Shown one piece after another: positions 20,247 to 38,390 of a DNA stretch of 64,000 nucleotides; the first letter of the stretch is position 1; each line of letters starts with the position of its first letter. Both the position numbers and the translations under genes were made by a program. Source of the stretch: Candidatus Kapaibacterium sp. (lineage in GTDB: Bacteria; Bacteroidota; Ignavibacteria; Kapaibacteriales; UBA2268). The notes below the pieces were generated by a model. The model was not told where the DNA came from. It searched no databases and was given only the letters and a program-made list of their open reading frames with translations. Location: assembly GCA_026390695.1 (NCBI GenBank), contig JAPLFL010000037.1, positions 1 through 64,000 on the forward strand, written 5' to 3'.

Positions 20247-20312
20247 GTCATTCCTGCGAATGCAGGAATCTCCTTCGTTAAAATCGGGGATTCCTGCATT
20301 CGCAAAAATGAC
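20247..20312. repeat. Mobile palindrome (GTCATTCCTGCGAATGCAGG family), full hairpin
   Basis: Left arm 20247-20270 pairs with right arm 20289-20312 over 24 bases with two mismatches and an 18-base loop. Other members are at 22084-22107 (inside a gene) and 29736-29890 (tandem). Such REP-like elements are common in environmental bacteria; a terminator role for the DHFR-like gene is possible. Confidence 0.8.
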
Positions 20313-20935: not shown

Positions 20936-21226
20936 ATGCCGATATACTCAATAAATACGTCTCAGAAGACTTCGACACCTTTTAGCAAGAGACCAGCGTC
21001 GTTTAAGAAGGCTTCAGCATCATTTAAGAAGATACCGACGCCATTTAAGAAGGCATCGACATCATTTAAGAAGATACCGACGCCATTTAAGAAGACTTCA
21101 ACATCGTTTAAGGAGACATCAGCGCCGTTTAAGAAGGTTAATATACCGCATTATTTGATATATTCTATATTTATTACCATTATTTACTTATTTAATTATT
21201 TTATTTATATATTTAACGTTTATTAG
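20936..21226 (+). CDS. Mini-ORF B: 7-residue repeat peptide with hydrophobic tail
   Basis: 96 residues from an ATG: eight tandem heptapeptides FKKASTS / FKKIPTP (DNA 20981-21148), strongly basic, then a hydrophobic tail HYLIYSIFITIIYLFNYFIY (about 72-91) that could span a membrane. No family is recognised. The repeat begins each unit with TTTAAG, like mini-ORF A (TTTAAA). The minus strand is also open over the repeat, with FLNDVDA heptads that resemble the SLNSVEM heptads antisense to mini-ORF A. A chance open frame over a minisatellite is possible. Upstream, CTAATACAATATTTTACGTT is partly duplicated (about 20888-20930). Confidence 0.35.
   Translation: MPIYSINTSQKTSTPFSKRPASFKKASASFKKIPTPFKKASTSFKKIPTPFKKTSTSFKETSAPFKKVNIPHYLIYSIFITIIYLFNYFIYIFNVY
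20981..21148. repeat. 21-bp tandem repeat, eight units
   Basis: Units alternate between TTTAAGAAGGCATCGACATC and TTTAAGAAGATACCGACGCC types (each plus one base). The alternation points to amplification of a 42-bp pair. Confidence 0.95.
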
Positions 21227-21256: not shown

Positions 21257-22849
21257 ATGAAAACTTATACTCGCTACTATTTAATATTTATATTATTTAT
21301 ATATATATTATCGTTACTTTTGTCAATGCCGCCGGGACCTGATTTGATGGTTTTTATCAATGGCGCGAAAGCGATTGCTTCTGGCAATACCTTATATAAA
21401 GATTACATCGATATTAAACCGCCTTTGATCTATTATATTTATTATATTATTATAAAAATCTTTGGTACGGGCGAATATTCAATCAGATACTTCGACGTTT
21501 GCCTGCAAATATTGAACATTATGTTGATTTACAAAATGGTTTATAAGTTTAGTGGTAATCCCAAAGCATCTTATTTAGCAGCGTTTATATATCTTATCAG
21601 TTATGTAAACCTTGGGGCGACGGGAACATTGCAATGCGAGACACTTGCAGCACCATTATTTATAATAATATTATATATTCAAGCATCGGGCGATAATAGA
21701 TTAGCATCTAAGATTATACAGGGCATAACATTAGGGCTTATCATATCATTAAAATATACTTTGGGAATAATATTAATACCATTATTGATTGATACAATAT
21801 ATAATAATGGATTAAAGAGATCATTGAAACAATTAGCAATAATAGGATTGAGCGGAATATGTATTATTATTATAGTTCACATACATTTATTGAATCCTGA
21901 GTTAAGAAATTCTTATTTTACAATGTTAAAATACTTATCCGACTACTCTTCGGTGGCATCAATAAATCTTTCGACGATAAAAAATTCAATTAATATGATA
22001 GGATATTATTTTGGCGGGAATTATTCACTACTTTTAACATTTCTTTTATTTATTGGATTTATATTTACGCTTTCTCCAAACCTGTCATTCCTGCGAATGC
22101 AGGAATTCCCAGAGGAAAATTATCCCTTTTTGCGATTAATGAAACTAAGTTTACTCTTTTTTATATTTCTTTTCATATCAATTATTATTGAGAACAAGTT
22201 CTTTGTTTATCATTTTTCACGATTTTATCTTTTTAGTGCAATTCTTTCTGCTGGCGGCGTTATATTTCTGAGTAAATTTATCGCTTTATTTCATAAGAAA
22301 CATGATTTAATCAACAGATTTCTTTTATTTTGTTTAATGATATTTGCATTTATCTTTAGTCCGCTGCCAAGATTAGCTCAAAGCGCTGTATTGCAGTATT
22401 ATTATTTTGCAAATGCAGCCAAGTACGATGCTTTTATCGGCGCCGCTTCATATTACAAGCAATCCGTGCGTGAACAAAACCGCAGAGTTGCCGAAATTTG
22501 CAACGTGGATATTAATTCTAATGATCTTGTCGAGATAATTGGGATCAGTTCATCGAATTTGGGAGTATTTATGAAGCCCTCACGGCGAACTTCCTTTGGT
22601 CAGCCGTATTTCTATCTTTCTAAAAATTCACCCGGCGCGTGGAAGGAGAAGTTCTACGGCGAATTGAATGAAGCGAAATGGCTGATTATCAATACCGACG
22701 ATTCTCAATTTGAGGTGACCAATTATTTTGAGTCGAGTTATGAGATGATTTTGAAAGACAGTATTGCTTTCAAATATTTGAAAAATAATTTTAAACTTGT
22801 GGATTCCACAAAAATTTATAAAATATATCTTAAATATAATCGTTTATAG
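21257..22849 (+). CDS. Polytopic membrane glycosyltransferase (family 39/ArnT-like)
   Basis: 530 residues with about 10-12 hydrophobic helices and a soluble C-terminal part (about 385-530). The first periplasmic loop has GNTLYKDYIDIKPPLIYYIY, the acidic-then-KPP pattern of GT-C enzymes of the PMT/ArnT type that use polyprenyl-phosphate sugars. It probably adds a sugar to an envelope glycolipid or protein. A copy of the GTCATTCCTGCGAATGCAGG palindrome (22084-22107) lies inside the reading frame and encodes SFLRMQEF in a loop between two helices; the frame stays open. The RNase P RNA begins 5 bp after the stop. Confidence 0.75.
   Translation: MKTYTRYYLIFILFIYILSLLLSMPPGPDLMVFINGAKAIASGNTLYKDYIDIKPPLIYYIYYIIIKIFGTGEYSIRYFDVCLQILNIMLIYKMVYKFSGNPKASYLAAFIYLISYVNLGATGTLQCETLAAPLFIIILYIQASGDNRLASKIIQGITLGLIISLKYTLGIILIPLLIDTIYNNGLKRSLKQLAIIGLSGICIIIIVHIHLLNPELRNSYFTMLKYLSDYSSVASINLSTIKNSINMIGYYFGGNYSLLLTFLLFIGFIFTLSPNLSFLRMQEFPEENYPFLRLMKLSLLFFIFLFISIIIENKFFVYHFSRFYLFSAILSAGGVIFLSKFIALFHKKHDLINRFLLFCLMIFAFIFSPLPRLAQSAVLQYYYFANAAKYDAFIGAASYYKQSVREQNRRVAEICNVDINSNDLVEIIGISSSNLGVFMKPSRRTSFGQPYFYLSKNSPGAWKEKFYGELNEAKWLIINTDDSQFEVTNYFESSYEMILKDSIAFKYLKNNFKLVDSTKIYKIYLKYNRL
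22084..22107. repeat. Mobile palindrome half inserted in a coding sequence
   Basis: GTCATTCCTGCGAATGCAGG plus AATT, identical over 23 bases to the left arm of the hairpin at 20247. It encodes part of a loop at about residues 277-284 of the membrane glycosyltransferase. Confidence 0.85.
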
Positions 22850-22854
22850 ATTGG

Positions 22855-23345
22855 CTTTGCAGGGAAAACGGGTAGTCGCGCGAAATATTTGACATTTATT
22901 TGTAGAATATGACGTGAGGAAAGTCCGAACTCCATAGAACAATGCGCTTCGTAACGCGAAGGCGGCGAGTGAAAGGTATTATTTTTATGATATTGCTTAC
23001 GAGCCGACGGAAAGTGCAACAGAAAGCAGACCGCCAGAGGTTCGGCAGCAATGTTGTGCCTTTGGTAAGGGTGAAACGGTAGGGTAAGAGCCTACCAGCG
23101 GCGTTAGCAATAGTGCCGGCTTGGTAAACCCCGCATGGAGCAAAGCTAAGTAAGAATGATATTTCGGTGATAAAGCCGGAGCCGGGCTGTTCGTTCGGTT
23201 AAAACAGGTTTTTAATTTGTTTTTACTCATTCGGGTAAGCTGCTTGAGCCTCGTGGTGACGCGTGGCCTAGATAAATGACTACCTCCGCAGTGTTTTTGG
23301 GCACGGCGAAGACAGAATTCGGCTTATAGTTTTCTCTGCAAGGTT
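22855..23345 (+). ncRNA. rnpB: RNase P RNA
   Basis: Catalytic RNA that matures tRNA 5' ends. It shows the universal core: GAGGAAAGTCCGAACTCC (22916-22933), ACAGAAAGCAGACCGCC (about 23019-23035), GGTAAGGGTGAAACGGT, a CCAGCGGCG region, AAACCCCGC, and the 3' P4 strand ACAGAATTCGGCTTA (23312-23326). The ends pair as P1: CTTTGCAGGGAAAAC (22855-22869) with GTTTTCTCTGCAAGG (23329-23343). A T run follows (23344-23351) and may end transcription. At about 490 nt it is longer than most bacterial forms (about 350-410); the extra length is in AT-rich arms near 22975-23000 and 23155-23235. Confidence 0.95.
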
Positions 23346-29735: not shown

Positions 29736-29890
29736 CATTCCTGCGAATGATGAAGTGTGAAATGATAATTTTCCTGTCATTCCTGCGAATGATGAAGTGT
29801 GAAATGATAATTTTCCTGTCATTCCTACGAATGATGAAGTGTGAAATTATAATTTCCCTGTCATTCCTGCGAATGCAGGAATCCCCAAAA
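29736..29890. repeat. 42-bp tandem array built from the GTCATTCCTGCGAATG palindrome
   Basis: Three full units start at 29736, 29778 and 29820 (CATTCCTGCGAATGATGAAG followed by TGTGAAATGATAATTTTCCT). A fourth partial copy from 29862 ends in the normal GCAGGAATCCCC form. It occupies much of the 346-bp gap before gpmI; the rest shows no gene. Confidence 0.9.
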
Positions 29891-31610: not shown

Positions 31611-31686
31611 TCCCCCCTGCCCCCCTCTTTCAAAGGAGGGTGAAGAATTGGATTTGTCCCCCACCCGAAAAAGGGGGTTAGGGGGA
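31611..31686. repeat. C/G-rich mobile hairpin, copy 1
   Basis: TCCCCCCTGCCCCCCTCTTT ... AAAAAGGGGGTTAGGGGGA: the C-rich left arm pairs imperfectly with the G-rich right arm. A second copy is at 38313-38390, about 85% alike including the loop (GAAGAA-TTGGATTTGT). The GC content contrasts sharply with the surroundings. Confidence 0.85.
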
Positions 31687-38312: not shown

Positions 38313-38390
38313 TCCCCCCTGCCCCCCTTTTTCAAAGGGGGATGAAGAAATGGGATTTGTTCTCCCACCCAAAAAAGGGGGTTAGGGGGA
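38313..38390. repeat. C/G-rich mobile hairpin, copy 2
   Basis: TCCCCCCTGCCCCCCTTTTT ... AAAAAAGGGGGTTAGGGGGA; about 85% like 31611-31686. Confidence 0.85.

Follow-up and report, generated by a model that had tools for sequence, protein, structure and literature searches.

The REPs of the CGTC-1 family are the closest described counterparts of the element discussed here. In the definition of Di Nocera, De Gregorio and Rocco 2013 (PMC3733652), they carry an unpaired 5' tag, CGTC or often TGTC, followed by an 8-bp stem with A-T residues at positions 1 and 2, a 4-nt loop and a short tail with the consensus CCA. Head-to-head dimers predominate and intragenic copies occur. The same paper equates CGTC-1 with Neisseria dRS3 and Rickettsia RPE-6 and reports no transposase for CGTC REPs in general; its text on CGTC-1 REPs does not name a Kapaibacterium-like lineage. 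Two further systems invite comparison. The Rickettsia palindromic elements (RPEs), about 150 bp long (PMC10969869), lie in frame in many unrelated genes of their obligate intracellular hosts (Ogata 2000 and 2002, cited in PMC10969869 and PMC3733652), and the REPIN/RAYT system joins GTAG REPs with a Y1 transposase (RAYT, PMC3733652). Intragenic REPs have been published for several species, with tRNA synthetases and repair genes among the carriers. The passages of PMC12306157 contain neither 'in-frame' nor 'intragenic', and the spelling 'Kapabacteri' is absent among the literature matches listed; we do not assert that the Kapaibacterium case is new to the literature.

In this context, we analyzed a stretch of 64,000 nucleotides from Candidatus Kapaibacterium sp., referred to as the window. 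A 27-nt monomer assigned to the CGTC-1 type by its sequence, the family definition, genome matches and an RNA hairpin occupies positions 22083-22109 on the forward strand. It consists of the tag TGTC (22083-22086), a stem formed by ATTCCTGC and GCAGGAAT around the loop GAAT, and the tail TCC. The exact 20-mer of the repeat covers 22084-22103 (+) and recurs in the window at 20247 and 29860, and shuffled window sequence yielded 0 matches in 100 shuffles. Folded as RNA, the 35 nt around the coding copy reach -12.4 kcal/mol with a z-score of -3.9, a stability found in one of 200 shuffles.

The monomer is part of an ORF at 21257-22849 (+) that encodes a polytopic membrane protein of 530 aa and of the PMT_2 family, which we take to be a GT-C type glycosyltransferase. 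Its PF13231 match spans residues 54-207 (E 2e-13; 51.3 bits versus the curated Pfam cut-off of 26.1), and a profile of host-protein homologues matches residues 5-526 of the ORF. Searching by sequence for a solved homologue returned four unrelated chains alone, with E of at least 0.2. Within this frame, GTCATTCCTGCGAATGCAGG is read as TCA TTC CTG CGA ATG CAG GAA TTC and thus codes for SFLRMQEF, residues 277-284. According to plain hydropathy, the sole basis of the topology, the peptide opens a 17-residue loop (277-293) flanked by the hydrophobic segments 258-276 and 294-312. The initial annotation had described just this arrangement, a repeat in frame in a membrane glycosyltransferase and coding SFLRMQEF in an inter-helix loop, and both parts are borne out by the exact 20-mer inside the ORF and by the two hydrophobic segments. 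The coordinates it gave, 22084-22107, pointed to the correct site but were numbered one base off, as the codons lie at 22085-22108 (+). In the immediate neighborhood, a bacterial RNase P class A RNA at 22860-23342 directly follows the glycosyltransferase gene. Just upstream, a 96-aa ORF contains a 42-bp tandem repeat with 21-bp half-units (20994-21137) that codes for TPFKK/SFKK repeats.

Two other sites in the window carry the repeat, and both had been recognized at the outset, one as an intergenic hairpin at 20247 and one as an array at 29736. The former proved to be an intergenic head-to-head dimer of 66 bp (20247-20312), of CGTC-1 type like the focal copy, whose facing arm at 20293 (-) has 2 mismatches; a 74-nt stretch around it folds strongly as RNA, at -41.7 kcal/mol (z -9.1). 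The latter is a 42-bp tandem array of 3.3 copies (29736-29875) that runs into a full REP arm at 29860, so that the whole feature extends over 29736-29881 (+). Palindromes of a second family, CCCCCTTT...AAAGGGGG-like, are present at 31620-31680 and 38321-38342, outside ORFs of at least 150 aa.

With up to 2 mismatches allowed, the repeat gives 375 matches across the genome (4,633,311 bases, 129 contigs), of which 206 are forward and 169 reverse. Every arm of a dimer is counted separately in these numbers, and the reversed-sequence control at the same threshold gives none. The genome stretches fetched contain 98 distinct exact copies, all built on the architecture of TGTC, an 8-bp stem starting with AT, a 4-nt loop and a tail. 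With up to 6 of 22 mismatches allowed, an inverted partner lies within 120 nt in 88 of the 96 scorable exact copies; as only eight have none, monomers are unusual. Most paired copies (81 of the 88) span 66-71 bp, the commonest lengths being 69 (35 copies) and 70 (34 copies). Many dimers are embedded in longer common flanks, AGCCTCATTTCT before and ATTTTTGTTAAATATGTGGC after (for example at loci L001, L013 and L067), as if they were carried by larger miniature elements. The copy number, the dimer structure and the segments missing in relatives point to an element that is probably mobile and non-autonomous.

At the level of sequence, the element's tag, stem, loop and dimer form all agree with the published description of the CGTC-1 family. 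The likeness includes the TGTC tag, the 8-bp stem starting with AT, the 4-nt loop, the 3-nt tail, the head-to-head dimers, the intragenic copies and the absence of an adjoining Y1 transposase. The sequence of the tail differs from the family as described: it is mostly CCC here (65 of the 98 exact copies), followed by CTC (20), with the consensus CCA in only three; the focal copy has TCC. Short hairpin repeats that often form inverted pairs are likewise found in REPIN/RAYT systems, but the tag there is GTAG instead of TGTC, and no Y1 transposase gene adjoins the repeat here. Of the four PF01797 (Y1_Tnp) matches in the genome, for which flanks of up to 1.5 kb on each side were inspected (one shorter at a contig end), three have no copy, and at the fourth a dimer lies some 0.9 kb downstream; this survey covered the Y1 class only. 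With RPEs the element shares its position in frame in protein-coding genes and its absence from homologues. It differs from them in size, with 27 nt for the monomer and mostly 69-70 bp for the dimers, and in host, since RPEs belong to obligate intracellular Rickettsia and the repeat described here is found outside Rickettsia, in a 4.6-Mb genome.

The initial annotation had proposed an alignment of orthologues as the check on capture, and this comparison supports it. The anchored span around the loop measures 57 residues in the host protein versus 38-49 (median 47) in 41 homologous ORFs, an excess of 8 over the longest homologue and of 10 over the median. With up to 2 substitutions allowed, none of the 41 matches any of the four repeat peptides. 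As 27 nt correspond to nine codons, the excess fits one REP monomer. The aligned ORFs, each of at least 400 aa, come from 37 of 38 loci, the remaining locus being without a homologous ORF of that length; the loci comprise L032-L055, those newly returned by a second search and a paralogue from the same genome, with the weak, short matches L056-L060 left out. Of the 123 genomes covered by that second search, 57 had matches, with the source genome included, and the alignment covered part of these matches. A first scan of genome contigs with the host protein had yielded no relative, and the homologues stem from other genome searches, in which the best matches had 32-34% identity and none was a close orthologue. 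The empty site is for this reason readable at the protein level only, and a target duplication is not definable. The focal loop is also a site of variable length among the homologues. Taken together, we assign a probability of about 0.9 to the reading that the segment is one CGTC-1 family REP monomer inserted into the membrane glycosyltransferase gene.

Similar captures are found elsewhere in the same genome. ORF scans of the fetched stretches added five genes in which the frame extends well beyond the repeat on both sides. Valyl-tRNA synthetase (ValRS), acetoacetate-CoA ligase and adenine deaminase are identified by NCBIfam matches above cut-off, and the fourth carrier is a second glycosyltransferase. 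The fifth, an SbcD-like metallophosphoesterase, falls below its NCBIfam cut-off but above that of Pfam, and its Pfam match (14-278) encloses the repeat. Candidates in which the repeat precedes the likely start (L009, L071), and short ORFs that lack homology, were left out. MutS2 is a doubtful sixth case, because the repeat is near the N terminus (about residue 42 of the open frame) and translation may begin beyond it: the family match begins at residue 60, and there are two TTG codons, at 57 and 62, that might serve as start. Five genes, the focal one among them, contain seven of the 98 exact copies.

The first four of these genes, the SbcD-like protein and MutS2 thus being outside the comparison, were set against homologues from 29 relatives and the source genome, with matches in 30, 26, 25 and 29 of 30 genomes for ValRS, acetoacetate-CoA ligase, adenine deaminase and the glycosyltransferase, respectively. 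In ValRS the anchored span has 74 residues versus 27-39 in homologues (28 scorable of 29). Matches of most relatives stop near residue 613 and restart near 665-674, and the repeat-containing insert comprises about 35-47 residues; the matches listed, ordered by E-value, include no second full-length ValRS of this genome. Acetoacetate-CoA ligase has 126 residues versus 42-51 in all eight of the close homologues that made up its comparison (L194-L201), adenine deaminase 69 versus 19-25 (23 scorable of 24), and the second glycosyltransferase 52 versus 21-22 (all 19 loci fetched). Judged from these alignments of predicted proteins, the in-frame REP dimers or clusters in the four genes are shown to be insertions absent from every scored homologue.

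Some of these proteins hold palindromes of another kind. Adenine deaminase (L117:3104-5164) has a second in-frame insert at residues about 427-497, made of tandem CCCCCTTTGAAAAAGGGGG-like palindromes that differ from the focal repeat, and the matches of relatives skip it. A stretch that resembles this insert lies in a 911-aa open frame (G000:C75:103474-103623), and the ValRS insert also holds a palindrome of a similar kind.

The view that the focal copy is a rare case does not hold, given at least five further genes with in-frame copies in the same genome and intragenic palindromes in print since 2000. How often the repeat falls into genes can be gauged from a sample of 764 kb, composed of the window and 35 stretches of 20 kb taken from longer contigs and not picked for copies. 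It contains 27 repeat clusters at up to 5 mismatches, two of them in ORFs of at least 150 aa, namely the focal gene and the doubtful MutS2.

Beyond this genome, a search of 59 relatives that tolerated up to 2 mismatches found the repeat in 11 and in none of the other 48, and the richest relative has 96 matches compared with the 375 noted above. The exact 20-mer occurs in at least 98 stretches of named genomes, with many phyla in their titles. An ORF scan of 80 of these loci gave 11 candidate in-ORF copies, and the remaining 18 loci gave two more. Candidates from other genomes were judged by domain position, without homologue comparison. A Pfam scan of eight of the 11 placed the repeat inside an above-cut-off domain in five: a polyprenyl synthetase, a Pol IV-type polymerase, a FemAB protein, an O-antigen ligase and a type IX secretion tail. 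In the other three it is located between below-cut-off DHH and DHHA1 matches (one candidate) or outside (two). The peptide SFLRMQEF itself reappears in Candidatus Kapaibacterium sp. SKW166 (L317:5682-6869), inside a type IX secretion sorting domain. This domain has 65 residues on 63 Pfam profile positions, and with almost no excess length relative to the profile the peptide may there replace a loop rather than extend it.

Several other explanations of the focal segment deserve consideration. The varying loop length among homologues (38-49) would leave room for an ordinary loop that merely resembles the repeat by chance or convergence. The exact 20-mer, unmatched in 100 shuffles, the excess length that fits the repeat and the parallel insertions elsewhere reduce this chance to practically nothing. 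An assembly artefact, in which unrelated sequences were joined at a shared repeat, draws on the fragmentation into 129 contigs and on several copies near contig ends, which together suggest that repeats may have troubled the assembly. Such joins are nevertheless very improbable as the source of the focal copy: a single homologue family matches ORF residues 5-526 collinearly and without a change of frame; for ValRS, acetoacetate-CoA ligase, adenine deaminase and a glycosyltransferase, the regions before and after the insert are both matched by homologues; and the frame is kept every time, unlike in random joins. Less remote, and still unlikely, is the uptake of a full dimer that then lost one arm instead of the receipt of a monomer. 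The scarcity of monomers (88 of 96 scored exact copies are paired) speaks for such a loss, whereas the excess length corresponds to a single monomer and no clear second arm follows the tail.

A different issue is whether the captured repeat is kept for a function, either by slowing translation between two membrane helices through an mRNA hairpin or by giving the enzyme a useful loop peptide. The coding copy reproduces the 20-mer of the family exactly and forms a stable RNA hairpin (-12.4 kcal/mol, z -3.9), as this explanation would have it, but an exact match is also the expected look of a recent insertion. Moreover, the proteins with captures are unrelated and read the repeat in different frames (VIPANAGI, SFLRMQE, DSCIRRND, IPACAGMT), which argues against a common peptide function, and we consider retention for function improbable. 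We regard tolerance of the added peptide, as opposed to usefulness or selection, as most likely.

For the insertion of a single REP monomer, which remains our preferred reading, the following course can be envisaged. An enzyme supplied in trans would copy the REP, as a unit that bears a hairpin but is not autonomous, and a monomer would have inserted into a permissive loop of the membrane glycosyltransferase. Insertions into coding DNA would survive if their total length is a multiple of three, if no stop is read and if the site is a loop. The 27-nt monomer reads open in five of six frames and would stay in frame at any landing site, and the 69-nt dimer, one of the two common lengths, would likewise keep the frame.

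The capture of palindromes in frame is in itself already known, from Rickettsia and from REPs of several species. What this genome adds is a set of captured genes in another lineage, ValRS included, with the segment absent from homologues. It is a clear-cut and countable example, from outside Rickettsia, of mobile palindromes turned protein. ValRS is an essential enzyme, and with its insert it either tolerates the additional segment or has it processed. For annotators, the peptides VIPANAGI, SFLRMQES, DSCIRRND and IPAFAGMT are a warning, as they mark repeat-derived segments. A broader reading, toward which we lean less than toward its opposite, is that housekeeping enzymes keep gaining in-frame peptides from a REP family for which no transposase is known, to an extent comparable with the RPEs of Rickettsia, here with peptides of 9 to about 80 residues in a 4.6-Mb genome outside the intracellular Rickettsiales. 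If true, the palindrome would be a recurrent generator of loop insertions and not purely extragenic DNA.
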